Virus record (IMG/VR): IMGVR_UViG_3300037882_000279
Span: 1-25,922 of that record
Length of the DNA stretch: 25,922 nt
Reading direction: 5' to 3' (one strand)
Source: a virus
Shown here: positions 5,965 through 13,179 of the stretch, one piece after another
How the letters are laid out: every line of letters starts with the position of its first letter
Position numbering within the stretch: the stretch's first letter is position 1
The notes under the pieces: model-generated
What the model was told of the DNA's origin: nothing
Seen by the model: only the letters and a program-made list of their open reading frames with translations
Database searches by the model: none
Made by a program: the position numbers and the translations under genes

Positions 5965-7081
5965 TGCTTCCAACGATTAAAATGTCTAATGTGTCACAGA
6001 ATGCGTATTGAGTTTCACTCACAACAATATCTGTAAAAGGTGTCGTACCGTCTGATAAAAACAAAGCACAGTCATATACAAACGCTTCGTCGTAACAAAC
6101 TTTTTTCTTTATGTTCGTAATAAGAACATCACGGCCTAGTTTAACTCCTATGTCTTTTAAATACTGAGTTAATGAAGGTGTAACAATATCCAATATGTCT
6201 TGGTTTACCGCACCTGTTTTTTTAGTGATTTTTACAGTAAGTCCATAGCTTGTTTTCGTAGGCGTTTGAACTACTACGGTATCGCACATTGTTCTTGTTT
6301 TTTCTGGATCTAATCGAGCTTGTACAGCGTCTAGTAATTCGGTTGGTGTATCTATACCACCTGCTACAAGTGGATACACTACAACTGTACCAGCAACCGC
6401 AGGAGGGTTAGGAACTGCTACGTCAATAATAAGTGGTGAAGTAGCGTAAGTAAAATACTTGTATGCATCTACTGGACCAGCTACAGAAAAAGAATTGGGA
6501 GCTAAAATAATCCTTTCTCTCAATTGTTCGTCTGTTTCTTGATCGCTACCGCTGTTACTTATATCTGTGTTTGCAGCAGAAAGTAAAAAAGGTTGTGGAT
6601 CTAAAATTATTGATATGTCACCTATTGCGTAATCGTTTCCGATTATACCCGGTGTATCTGCAATACATAGTGCTGAAATCGTTTCAACATCTTCAGCTAC
6701 AAATAAATCTTCAGCAAGCGCAAACACTACTTTTCCGTCAGTAGTTTGAATTCTCATATCTGCTGGAAGAAGTATATTACCGTGAGTTGGTGGAAATGTA
6801 AATTCTATTGTAGCATTAGCGTTCTGAGCCACTAAGCGTATAACTCCTACAAGGTATCCGAGTTCATCAAGCACAGGAGCTTTAGAATACCTTACAAGCA
6901 TGTTTGTTCCTGCGCTTTGTAACGCTGATCTATGGTCAGTCATGCGAGAAGCAATCATGTTTATGATTTTCATTTCAGGCGATCCCGGTTGTGGTTCAAC
7001 ACCTGTATCTGCTTTATAGAAATCTATACATGCTTGTATCTCTGCGTATGGATCGTTCTCAACTAATATTGGTGCTGCCAT
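5954..7081 (-). CDS. Baseplate wedge protein, P2 gpJ-like (Baseplate_J)
   Basis: A 375-residue protein of the Baseplate_J family. It opens with 'DPYAEIQACIDFYKADTGVEPQPGSPEMKIINMIA'-like sequence (the classic G-x-P-x-x-x-L/I-I region), has the 'GNDYAIGDI' segment, then 'TDEQLRERIILAPNSFSVAGPVDAYKYF' and 'VVYPLVAGG' in the central part, and the 'LDIVTPSLTQYLKDIGVKLGRDVLIT' helix near the C-terminus. gpJ builds the outer baseplate wedge with gpI and gpW. It starts 1 bp after gpW/gp25. Confidence 0.93.
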   Translation of the reverse strand: MAAPILVENDPYAEIQACIDFYKADTGVEPQPGSPEMKIINMIASRMTDHRSALQSAGTNMLVRYSKAPVLDELGYLVGVIRLVAQNANATIEFTFPPTHGNILLPADMRIQTTDGKVVFALAEDLFVAEDVETISALCIADTPGIIGNDYAIGDISIILDPQPFLLSAANTDISNSGSDQETDEQLRERIILAPNSFSVAGPVDAYKYFTYATSPLIIDVAVPNPPAVAGTVVVYPLVAGGIDTPTELLDAVQARLDPEKTRTMCDTVVVQTPTKTSYGLTVKITKKTGAVNQDILDIVTPSLTQYLKDIGVKLGRDVLITNIKKKVCYDEAFVYDCALFLSDGTTPFTDIVVSETQYAFCDTLDILIVGSNAG

Positions 7082-10148: not shown

Positions 10149-12167
10149 TTAATATTTAGCTCTGTTTTTATTTGCCATTACCCTTTCAATCAATGCTACA
10201 AGTTCGTCTCCACTTTCTCTAAGCGCAGACATTAAATCTGCTTTGCTTGAACCTGAACCCATGTGAATAGTAGGGTTGAAGTGTATTACAAATCCACCAC
10301 CAAAAGAATTTGACTGTGGAGGTCTTGCCGTAATTGCACCTGCTTGTGAAACTACATTAGACAACGCACGAACCATTGGAGCGGCTTTTATAGTGCCTGC
10401 GATGGTCTCTACTATTTTAAGCTTGTGGAGGTCTTTAAACGGTCCAGTTTTAGCAGGTGAAAACGGGAGAAGATCCCTCATTCCTTTAACAATATTTTTC
10501 ATAGCTTCTACTGGTTTTGAAGCCATTTGCTTTATTCCATCAAAAAGAGATTTTCCAATATTAATACCAGCATTTAACCAAGTTACCGGGCTTAATAATA
10601 CTAATGCTTCTGCTACATATTTTTTTATCACTGAAAACGACTTACCAATGAAAGAAGTAATAGAAGGCCAATTTTTATAAACCCATTTTCCAAATAATAT
10701 AAAAGGAAGAAGAACTAATGTAAATGGAAAAGCCATTACAATGAATGCCATTAGCCATTTCCATTTTGATTGTACAAATTTTACAATATTATCCCAGTAC
10801 AAATATATTACTGCTGCTGCAATTACTATAGCCATTGCAATTGCTATAAATGGATTTATAGCTAAAGTAGCGTTAAGTATTGTAGTGACAGCTATAATAC
10901 CTTTTATAATCATTATAACTCCTGCTAATGCCAACCCAGCACTAACAATGGCCGTTATAAGAACAGAAAGCTTTGCCAGTTTAGGATTTTCTTTTACGAA
11001 ATTAGCAATTCCGCTGGCCATGGTATTCATTAATTTCGCTATATTCGTCAACATAGGCTCAAACTGAGATGCAAGACTAGCAGAAATATTTGTAATTGTT
11101 CCGTCAAAAGCTTCCATCTGAGAATTCAAACCAGACGTTTGCAAATTTACTTTCTGCGTCAATGTTGCTTGATCCGACATTGCTTTAGTCATTGCATTAA
11201 AGCCTGCGCTTCCTTTGTCTGCAAGTATGTTCATGAAATCTGAATCTTTACCATCACCTAAGAATGCAGAAGAAATAGAATTCTTTTGTGCAGCAGTAAG
11301 ATTTTTCATTTTATCAAACTGAGCCATCATGTTTTCTATTCCTAAGAACTTGCCAGACTTCTTATCCATAAATTCCATAGTGATTCCAAACTGTCCTGCT
11401 ACTGCATTTAAAGCAGACATGGATTTAGGATCCAACATGTTTTTAAAAATAGAAGTCATACCAGTACCTATGGTCTCACCAGACTGACCCGATTTGATTA
11501 GCATAGCATCTACAGCAGCCATAGACTTTGAAGCCTCTAAGCCTTGTATGCCCATTAGTTTTAACGCTCCTGTACTTTTTGCAAATGCGTATTGCATTTC
11601 AATAGCGTCTACACCTACTTGTTTTGTTCGTGCAATGGTGTCAAGAAAATCCATTAACTCAGAATCCGCAACGCCTGTGCTTTCTTTCATTTTAGCAGCG
11701 AATTTCCCTGCTTCGTCATAAGGCATTTTTAAAGCTACAGCAAGATATGCTGCACCTTTCCCTACCCCGTTCAAAATATTTTCAGCGTTAATTCCGCTGT
11801 TTATCATTGTTGTGAACATCTTATGGAAATCCGCAGTTGTACCCGGTAGACTATTTCCAAGATTTATTGCAATATCGTTTACAGCATTAAATTGTTTTTC
11901 ATTAAGAATGCCTCCGTCCTTCATCATTGTAGACTTCAGGTCTAGCGCACCTTCTTGGAGGTCTGCAAAATCCTTTACGGTCTTGCCTATTAGAGCGAAA
12001 CCAGCAACACTAGTTCCTAGCATCCCGGTTCCTTTTGCAAAAAGCATTTTTGAATGGTTCTGTAAATCGGTAAGCTCCTTTTTACTTTTACCAACAGCAC
12101 TTTGAACCTCACGACTCATTGCGTCGTAGGCGGTCAACATTACTGCAACTTTTAATAAACTGTTCAT
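10149..12167 (-). CDS. Tail tape measure protein (TP901-type)
   Basis: A 672-residue protein. An N-terminal helix is followed by the TP901 tape-measure core ('VAGFALIGKTVKDFADLQEGALDLKSTM', 'LGNSLPGTTADFHKMFTTMINSG', 'LKLMGIQGLEASKSMAAVDAML', about residues 1-380). Hydrophobic segments follow at about 395-460 (ITAIVSAGLALAGVIMIIKG, INPFIAIAMAIVIAAAVIYLYW) and 470-490 (LMAFIVMAFPFTLVLLPFILFG). The C-terminus has 'LLPFSPAKTGPFKDL', a conserved tape-measure motif. It sets tail length and probably enters the cell membrane during DNA injection. It starts just after the terminator hairpin that follows the tail chaperone, and a 'GGAG' lies 5 bp before its ATG, a rare Shine-Dalgarno-like site here. 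Confidence 0.93.
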   Translation of the reverse strand: MNSLLKVAVMLTAYDAMSREVQSAVGKSKKELTDLQNHSKMLFAKGTGMLGTSVAGFALIGKTVKDFADLQEGALDLKSTMMKDGGILNEKQFNAVNDIAINLGNSLPGTTADFHKMFTTMINSGINAENILNGVGKGAAYLAVALKMPYDEAGKFAAKMKESTGVADSELMDFLDTIARTKQVGVDAIEMQYAFAKSTGALKLMGIQGLEASKSMAAVDAMLIKSGQSGETIGTGMTSIFKNMLDPKSMSALNAVAGQFGITMEFMDKKSGKFLGIENMMAQFDKMKNLTAAQKNSISSAFLGDGKDSDFMNILADKGSAGFNAMTKAMSDQATLTQKVNLQTSGLNSQMEAFDGTITNISASLASQFEPMLTNIAKLMNTMASGIANFVKENPKLAKLSVLITAIVSAGLALAGVIMIIKGIIAVTTILNATLAINPFIAIAMAIVIAAAVIYLYWDNIVKFVQSKWKWLMAFIVMAFPFTLVLLPFILFGKWVYKNWPSITSFIGKSFSVIKKYVAEALVLLSPVTWLNAGINIGKSLFDGIKQMASKPVEAMKNIVKGMRDLLPFSPAKTGPFKDLHKLKIVETIAGTIKAAPMVRALSNVVSQAGAITARPPQSNSFGGGFVIHFNPTIHMGSGSSKADLMSALRESGDELVALIERVMANKNRAKY

Positions 12168-12181
12168 TGGCTCCGATATAA

Positions 12182-12211
12182 AAACAGCCAGATTTATGAG
12201 TCTGGCTGTTT
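12182..12211 (-). terminator. Intrinsic terminator-like hairpin between tail chaperone and tape measure
   Basis: AAACAGCCAGA (12182-12192) pairs with TCTGGCTGTTT (12201-12211) over 11 bp around an 8-nt loop. On the minus strand it is followed by TTTTTATA. It overlaps the last codons of the -1 frame of the chaperone, so it is translated during frameshifting. It could reduce tape-measure expression relative to sheath, tube and chaperone. Confidence 0.75.
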
Positions 12212-12639
12212 GTTTAGTCTGTTAAATTCCTTTACTGATTGATTGTACCAATAACAACATTCGTCAATTGTACATTCTAACCAATAAGGCAAAGGCGTGT
12301 TAGTGAAATGCGATAAGAACGTTAGTTGCTGATCGCTGATTAAAAATTTACACTAAACATGGCTTGCAGCTTCAACACATCACGCCCAGGCATTTCGTCA
12401 ATGTCTTCGAGTACGATTTTTTTACCGTCAATGGTGGTGGTAATTGCAATTAGTGCAAAAATCATTTTGCCTGCATTACCGTCTGCCATTTCCGTTGCTT
12501 GTCTGATGTGCTTACCTTTGAAGTCAGAAACTACAGCAACTTTACCACTTGGTAAAACTGCTTCTTGTGAACCTTTAAAAGGCTCTTTAATTTCTTCCAT
12601 CGGTGTTGCTTGTGATTCGTTTTGTTCTCCTGTTTTCAT
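12194..12639 (-). CDS. Tail assembly chaperone, -1 frameshift fusion product (G-T / E-E' type)
   Basis: The zero-frame gene (12340-12639) ends GTA AAT TTT TAA. The bases 12349-12343 read A AAT TTT, a perfect X-XXY-YYZ slippery heptamer directly before the stop. A -1 shift continues with TTA ATC AGC GAT... for 49 codons to TAA at 12196-12194 (LISDQQLTFLSHFTNTPLPY...WYNQ...NRLNKQPDS), giving a 148-residue fusion. The -1 frame has a stop (TAG) just upstream of the heptamer and no ATG or GTG inside, so it can be reached only by slippage (one TTG aside). A weak stem (GCGAT at 12336-12332 with ATCGC at 12314-12310) begins 6 nt after the heptamer. Tail chaperones of long-tailed phages are known to use this mechanism, and the gene lies between tube and tape measure as expected. 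Confidence 0.85.
12340..12639 (-). CDS. Tail assembly chaperone, zero-frame product (PF10109-like)
   Basis: A 99-residue protein. A polar N-terminal tail (residues 1-24) is followed by 'AVLPSGKVAVVSDFKGKHIRQA', 'KMIFALIAITTTIDGKKIVLEDIDEMPGRDVLKLQAMF', the pattern of the Mu gp41 / P2 gpE type chaperone (beta-hairpin, 'T-x-idG-x-x-x-x-eDl-x-x-x-x-x-Dv-x-x-l'). It binds the tape measure protein during tail assembly and is not part of the virion. It shares its whole length with the -1 fusion product (12194-12639). The gene lies 15 bp after the tube gene. Confidence 0.9.
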   Translation of the reverse strand: MKTGEQNESQATPMEEIKEPFKGSQEAVLPSGKVAVVSDFKGKHIRQATEMADGNAGKMIFALIAITTTIDGKKIVLEDIDEMPGRDVLKLQAMFSVNF

Positions 12640-12654
12640 ATAAATTATGGTTGA

Positions 12655-13179
12655 TTAAATACCTAAGTTTGCTCTGTACTGCGCAAACTGATCTACTCCA
12701 TTTACTTTGTAAATGTTTGACAAAACGTTTACTTCTATGATTTCTTCGCTGTCAATTTCCATTTTGAAGTAGTACACGTTGAACATGTTTTCAAGTTCAA
12801 CATTGTCATGTTGCTTGAAGTTTCCAAGTGGAAAATCTTTAGACTGTACAGTTAAGAAAATCACCAACGGTAATTCTTCTATACGTCCTTCAGAGTTGTA
12901 ACCCTCAATACTAGCACGAACTTGCATAGTTACTGACTTGAATGGGTTAGCAAGTATTTTCATTACTTCTGGATACAAGCTGTTCCACTTGATCTTGCAT
13001 TCCATTTTGTCCATGCCAGAAGGGAACTCCATGCTTCCGAACAAGCCAATAGCTTTGTGTTCTGACATTTTGAACTTAACAGTAGGCAAGTTTATTTCTT
13101 CTGCACGACCTAGGAAAGACTGTCCTTCAAGGTATACGTTTGCATTTGTTACTCGACTGATTTGAATTTTTTCTGCCAT
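12655..13179 (-). CDS. Major tail tube protein (P2 FII-like)
   Basis: A 174-residue protein. 'TNANVYLEGQSFLGRAEEINLPTVKFKMSEHKAIGLFGSMEFPSGMDKMECKIKW' follows the P2 FII tube pattern (N-x-F-x-dG-x-x-x-G-x-aeei-x-LPxLxxk-x-E-x-x-agG-x-x-G). The length matches the family. The second half is beta-rich with 'EGRIEELPLVIFLTVQSKDFPLG' and the C-terminal 'YKVNGVDQFAQYRANLGI'. It forms the inner tube within the sheath. It directly follows the sheath gene (4-bp gap). Confidence 0.92.
   Translation of the reverse strand: MAEKIQISRVTNANVYLEGQSFLGRAEEINLPTVKFKMSEHKAIGLFGSMEFPSGMDKMECKIKWNSLYPEVMKILANPFKSVTMQVRASIEGYNSEGRIEELPLVIFLTVQSKDFPLGNFKQHDNVELENMFNVYYFKMEIDSEEIIEVNVLSNIYKVNGVDQFAQYRANLGI

Follow-up and report, generated by a model that had tools for sequence, protein, structure and literature searches.

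The window analysed here, the full 25,922 nucleotides of a 25.9-kb viral contig, carries a contractile-tail module on its minus strand. The genes of this module run in the order tail sheath, tail tube, chaperone open reading frame (ORF) and tape measure, followed by P2 U/X/D-like genes (Table 1). The chaperone gene lies between the tube and tape measure genes, the position typical of tail chaperone genes that undergo frameshifting.

Table 1. Features of the tail chaperone locus and its neighbours, in window coordinates
Feature	Position	Strand	Remarks
Tail sheath gene	14617-13184	(-)	Tail module
Tail tube protein, P2 FII family (upstream neighbour)	12655..13179	(-)	Phage_tube, E 6.5e-50
0-frame ORF, tail assembly chaperone	12340..12639	(-)	99 aa; analogue of lambda gpG / P2 gpE
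Upstream stop TAG in the -1 frame	12353..12355	(-)	Restricts shifting to 10 nt
Slippery heptamer A AAT TTT, in frame	12343..12349	(-)	A AAT TTN kept in 16/26 loci
0-frame stop TAA	12340..12342	(-)	Directly 3' of the heptamer, within the spacer before the hairpin
Stimulatory hairpin, predicted	12310..12336	(-)	Starts 6 nt past the heptamer; also encodes -1 frame residues
-1 frame extension, P2 E' / Mu gp42-like domain	12194..12343	(-)	49 codons (12343-12197) and stop (12196-12194)
Tape measure protein (downstream neighbour)	10149..12167	(-)	PhageMin_Tail, E 2.4e-21; phrog_28 tail length tape measure, E 3.1e-56

The 99-codon ORF ends with ATG TTT AGT GTA AAT TTT TAA. The original prediction placed a slippery heptamer here, and the codons bear this out: AAT and TTT follow GTA in frame and abut the TAA stop. 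Translation likewise confirms that the -1 frame continues for 49 codons past the heptamer (FLISDQQLTFLSHFTNTPLPYWLECTIDECCYWYNQSVKEFNRLNKQPDS) to its own TAA, that it is closed upstream by a TAG, and that it contains no ATG or GTG, the sole possible start being a TTG at 12292, 17 codons inside. Because the upstream TAG closes the -1 frame, any shift must take place in the final 10 nt of the 0 frame ahead of its stop, and A AAT TTT is the only in-frame X XXY YYZ heptamer inside this stretch. The motif itself is unexceptional. AAATTTTTAR is observed once in the window against a chance expectation of approximately 1.2, and A AAT TTY occurs in frame five times among 7,885 codon pairs. Since about one occurrence is expected by chance, the heptamer alone is not significant; significance rests on its conservation, its position, and the accompanying hairpin.

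In the original prediction, A AAT TTT followed directly by a stop was not regarded as a common slippery site, a view that is refined by E. coli measurements covering all 64 heptamers. In that survey, the class H_HH.U_UU.Y, to which both A AAU UUU and A AAU UUC belong, was among the most efficient -1 motifs, and stimulators strongly increased shifting (PMC4066793). A literature search for AAATTTT or AAAUUUU as a phage tail slip site found no example, and returned only a passing mention of AAATTTT in one paper on a Wolbachia phage hydrolase.

The identity of the 99-aa product as a tail assembly chaperone is supported by its position between tube and tape measure and, more weakly, by a fold match to the HK97 tail assembly chaperone. 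The AF2 model of this product (pLDDT 78) has both chains of the HK97 chaperone 2ob9 as its top two PDB matches. These matches are weak (probabilities 0.93 and 0.87, E 0.087 and 0.24, TM about 0.5), and are the only PDB matches with high probability. Nine of ten aligned members of the chaperone family match Phage_TAC_7, which comprises chaperones E, 41, and 14 (best E 1.3e-4). The window's own chaperone scores 14.7 bits, below the Pfam gathering cut-off of 25, and is thus related to Phage_TAC_7 without being a member by the Pfam criterion.

Profile comparison also upholds the proposed kinship of the extension with P2 E' and Mu gp42. The -1 extension matches both Mu gp42-like extensions (hhalign probability 94.9%, E 4e-8) and P2 E'-like extensions (94.3%, E 1e-7), while a reversed control reaches a probability of 0.6%. 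One family member matches Phage_P2_GpE (E 0.0065). The 148-aa protein predicted from the joined frames is most likely the counterpart of gpGT and gpE+E'.

Relatives were collected using profiles of the sheath, tube, and chaperone. The chaperone gave almost no matches as a single-protein query, and relatives were instead reached through the sheath and tube, and then with a chaperone alignment. One locus from the single-protein chaperone search, L002, was dismissed as an unrelated gene. The main table comprises 26 distinct chaperone loci, with the window counted among them. Many of the tube matches L051-L060 were left out as unusable, having a portal-like gene next to the tube instead of a chaperone. 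This group has a related tail tube (52-56% identical) but a different gene order: in most, a 485-491-aa portal-like protein directly follows the tube, sometimes with a methyltransferase-like ORF after it. A genome scan with the chaperone alignment returned a single locus, L104, and a phylum search around L104 returned no others; consequently, the host is not identified by homology.

Non-conservation of the heptamer and -1 frame had been named as grounds for refuting the original prediction; both are kept in relatives, as is the hairpin. An in-frame A AAT TTN lies near the 0-frame end in 16 of the 26 loci, whose chaperones, where aligned, are 31-61% identical to that of the window. The codon preceding this motif varies (GTA, ACA, TCA, GAA, GGA, AAA, CTA, and ATA). 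Given the amino acids and the codon usage of each locus, the chance of this A AAT TTN codon choice is approximately 10^-13, a product taken before allowing for the picking of 16 loci out of 26; as the loci share descent, this and the other p-values given here are optimistic. Most of the other loci have a different slip motif at the same place, and in one (L089) none was recognised. The slip sites of these sister groups include U UUU-type runs (CTT TTT, GTT TTT, CTT TTC), G GGA AAC, C GGG GGG, and A AAG. They are mostly accompanied by a hairpin at a similar distance, although this is not significant in L076 and L078.

In every pair of loci compared, the -1 frame is the conserved one. In nearly all pairs the second -1 codon position has the fewest substitutions, and in 20 of 21 the third has the most. 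For example, the window and L050 share 73% amino acid identity in the -1 frame versus 46% and 42% in the other frames, with 14, 7, and 23 substitutions at the three -1 codon positions. The extension is 49 codons long in the window and in the six closest relatives compared. By these sequence patterns, the -1 frame evolves as coding sequence.

The stem originally proposed (12336-12332 with 12314-12310), starting 6 nt past the heptamer, is present and forms the lower half of a larger predicted hairpin. The full hairpin has 10 interrupted base pairs, with 12336-12325 paired to 12320-12310 around a loop of four (12324-12321). It starts at +6 in the window and at +6 or +7 in most relatives, within the usual spacing of around 5-9 nt. 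Its predicted energy in the window, -8.5 kcal/mol, is weak, and hairpins at the same spacing range from weaker still (L004, -4.6 kcal/mol, z -1.3) to a perfect 11-bp stem (L075).

Because the encoded peptide S-x-E-L-x-F-L might itself favour a hairpin, stability was compared with that of 1,000 synonymous recodings of the -1 frame at each locus. The native hairpin is more stable than these recodings, with z = -4.77 in the window, and a mean of -2.4 and median of -2.5 over the 26 loci. Mean z values for 232 control segments in the same genes are 0.0 and -0.15 (Mann-Whitney p 1e-8 versus native). When the test is anchored on the slip site, the mean z is -2.5, and 15 of the 26 loci fall below -2. 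The synonymous test found no significant hairpin in L062, L085, and L104.

The consensus hairpin of five close relatives includes three pairs with compensatory changes on both sides, and almost none of this compensatory signal is left when the 3' partners are slid along. Counted on the minimum-energy pairing of the window itself, the covariation did not exceed column shuffles. The RNAalifold consensus pairing, a structure chosen on the same five sequences, was above them, with the observed score reached 18 times in 500 shuffles of the five-sequence set. As the pairing register shifts between subgroups, the synonymous test is given more weight than covariation. An upstream Shine-Dalgarno stimulator is not apparent in the window, in agreement with the rarity of Shine-Dalgarno leaders in this genome. 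Such leaders are absent from most genes of the window, and this scarcity suggests, but does not prove, a Bacteroidota host.

Comparison of the loci establishes the slip site, the hairpin at its spacing, a -1 frame that is coding in nature, and the homology of the extension. Very probably, the tail assembly chaperone gene of this P2/Mu-type contractile-tail phage contains a signal for programmed -1 ribosomal frameshifting. From this we infer that frameshifting occurs, together with its efficiency and its role in assembly. The majority of ribosomes would terminate at the TAA and release the 99-aa chaperone. A minority would pause at the hairpin 6 nt downstream with AAU and UUU in the decoding sites and slip back by one base, re-pairing from AAU UUU to AAA UUU in the tandem manner of X XXY YYZ sites, and then read UUA. 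These ribosomes would translate through the hairpin to yield the 148-aa protein with its C-terminal E'/gp42-like domain. By analogy with lambda gpG and gpGT, both forms may coat the tape measure, with the extended form recruiting tube subunits.

Other explanations for the same arrangement fare poorly. The -1 ORF might be a separate small gene, translated by ribosomes that terminate at the TAA and then reinitiate close by. Some relatives seem suited to this, since the -1 frame ATG overlaps the 0-frame stop in L007 and L122 (TAATG, ATGA), and several relatives have an in-frame ATG about seven codons in. However, the window offers only its internal TTG, and three loci (L050, L088, and L092) have no ATG, GTG, or TTG in the -1 ORF, as scanned up to 90 nt past the stop. 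Reinitiation also requires neither a conserved heptamer nor a hairpin at +6, yet even L007 and L122 keep the hairpin and a slip motif. It is thus a very unlikely account of the locus.

Slippage of the RNA polymerase on the A3T5 run, generating mRNAs with an extra base and a fusion protein from edited transcripts, is harder still to credit. The site is indeed A/T-rich (AAATTTTTAA), but its runs are short (five T and three A). Relatives carrying AAATTTCTAA, AAATTTGCTA, or GGGAAACTAG break these runs while keeping the X XXY YYZ logic, and a downstream hairpin at +6-7 fits ribosome pausing. Both transcriptional slippage and separate initiation are rejected as main explanations. There is next to no likelihood that a chance heptamer happens to sit at the gene end before a spurious -1 ORF: approximately one copy of the motif would be expected in the window anyway, but coincidence is contradicted by the kept heptamer, reading frame, 49-codon length, and hairpin.

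Within the frameshifting interpretation, the stop codon beside the slip site deserves separate consideration. Of 34 loci, 28 have their 0-frame stop no more than two codons from the slip site. Synonymous recoding of the -1 frame, with the slip site fixed, predicts 17.2 (sd 2.1), and shared ancestry inflates this result. Stop adjacency is also seen at other slip sites, such as G GGA AAC TAG in L087 and L092. This suggests that ending the 0-frame ahead of the hairpin is favoured. The stop is not essential, as three loci (L080, L085, and L104) keep the heptamer with the 0-frame stop six codons downstream. In L080, the hairpin is still 6 nt past the heptamer despite the distant stop; thus, at least in this locus, the hairpin follows the slip site and not the stop.

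Release factors plausibly have a role at the phage slip site. According to the account of Horsfield 1995 given in PMC4373837, a stop at this position lowered -1 shifting on the HIV-1 site in bacteria, and extra RF2 abolished it, which is taken there to mean that some slipping takes place while the stop occupies the A site. At the phage site, UUU would occupy the P site after translocation, preceded by U, making perfect -1 re-pairing possible. One tentative refinement is that slippage is mainly post-translocational, when the P site contains UUU and the A site the stop, and that release factors compete with it and so set the chaperone ratio. Both the stop-position bias, which extends to other slip sites, and the HIV-1 results favour this refinement. 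Against it stand the loci that lack an adjacent stop, and the relatedness of the loci, which makes the stop-position test optimistic. The bias may instead simply give a shorter 0-frame tail or keep terminating ribosomes clear of the hairpin. It is conceivable, if somewhat doubtful, that selection keeps the stop in the 6-nt spacer, with competition between release factor and slippage allowing host termination capacity to tune the ratio of short to long product.

Frameshifting of this kind is already known from other phages. What is new here is a well-conserved example with its own slippery site, distinguished by an A AAU UUY motif with the 0-frame stop inside the spacer. Rous sarcoma virus uses an A AAU UU-type heptamer at its gag-pol -1 site. 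There, too, the slip site is directly followed by a stop codon (PMC4373837) and then by RNA structure, a likeness that is an analogy only. In contrast to the small hairpin of the phage, this eukaryotic virus has a large and complex stimulator in which a pseudoknot stem is significant (PMC5009743).

Closer parallels are found among tailed phages. As here, the lambda G/GT gene lies between the major tail (tube) protein and the tape measure, and a low-level -1 shift near the end of its first ORF yields a C-terminally extended chaperone (PMC5009743). The lambda heptamer, however, is G GGA AAG, whereas the present phage has A AAT TTT with an abutting 0-frame stop. In addition, the extension described here is short (49 aa), and the searches made detected no sequence relation to lambda gpG/gpT. 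The resemblance to P2 E/E+E' and Mu gp41/gp42 extends to the contractile tail with FI/FII-type sheath and tube, the weak Phage_TAC_7 match, and an extension that is a profile relative of the P2 E'-like and Mu gp42-like domains. The Mu-like loci retrieved have other slip sites, for instance T TTT TTG and G TTT TTT runs that are followed by a stop about two codons later, in place of the A AAT TTY site found here, whose spacer contains the stop and whose hairpin starts at +6. Pseudomonas phage Bise (L106, chaperone 5998-6294) is also unlike the window, with its extension likely in the +1 (-2) frame, and so the direction of the shift differs between related contractile-tail phages.

These uncultured phages thus carry a compact, well-conserved frameshift signal, consisting of a heptamer, a stop in the spacer, and a small dual-coding hairpin. 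Hairpin spacing can be retained even as the slip motif changes among A AAT TTY, U UUU-type, G GGA AAC, and A AAG. The locus offers a clean natural system for the effect of a stop beside a slippery site on bacterial -1 frameshifting, where a stop inside the spacer may let release factors help set the product ratio. It also matters for annotation, as standard gene callers would miss both the -1 ORF and the 148-aa product.

The region upstream of the chaperone gene varies between loci. The gap in the window is only 15 nt, and four relatives carry a tRNA-Met(CAT) gene just ahead of the chaperone (L094:2342-2416, L104:2893-2965, L003:5980-6048, and L050:436-504). The copies in L094 and L104 are above the Rfam tRNA cut-off, and that of L104 has, by eye, an initiator-like anticodon stem and a C1-A72 mismatch. 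The tRNA-like copies in L003 and L050, which directly follow the tail tube gene, are shorter and were picked up by ARAGORN alone. An element of this sort could act on the transcript, by cutting or attenuation, between the genes for the abundant tube and the scarce chaperone. Among loci without a tRNA, a terminator-like GC hairpin is often present in the pre-chaperone gap (L048, L062, L075, L083, and L086), and L077 has a tRNA-like fold without a clear anticodon upstream of the chaperone.

At the other end of the locus, where the -1 ORF ends ahead of the tape measure start, the minus strand of the window has a near-perfect inverted repeat at 12182-12211 (AAACAGCCAGA...TCTGGCTGTTT), followed by T-rich sequence. 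This looks like an intrinsic terminator or attenuator, and a hairpin is also found at the equivalent place in L004, L006, L083, and L086. Elsewhere in the window, an ORF at 457-1122 has a long low-complexity A/N/Y stretch (AAANAAAYAAA...) in its C-terminal half.
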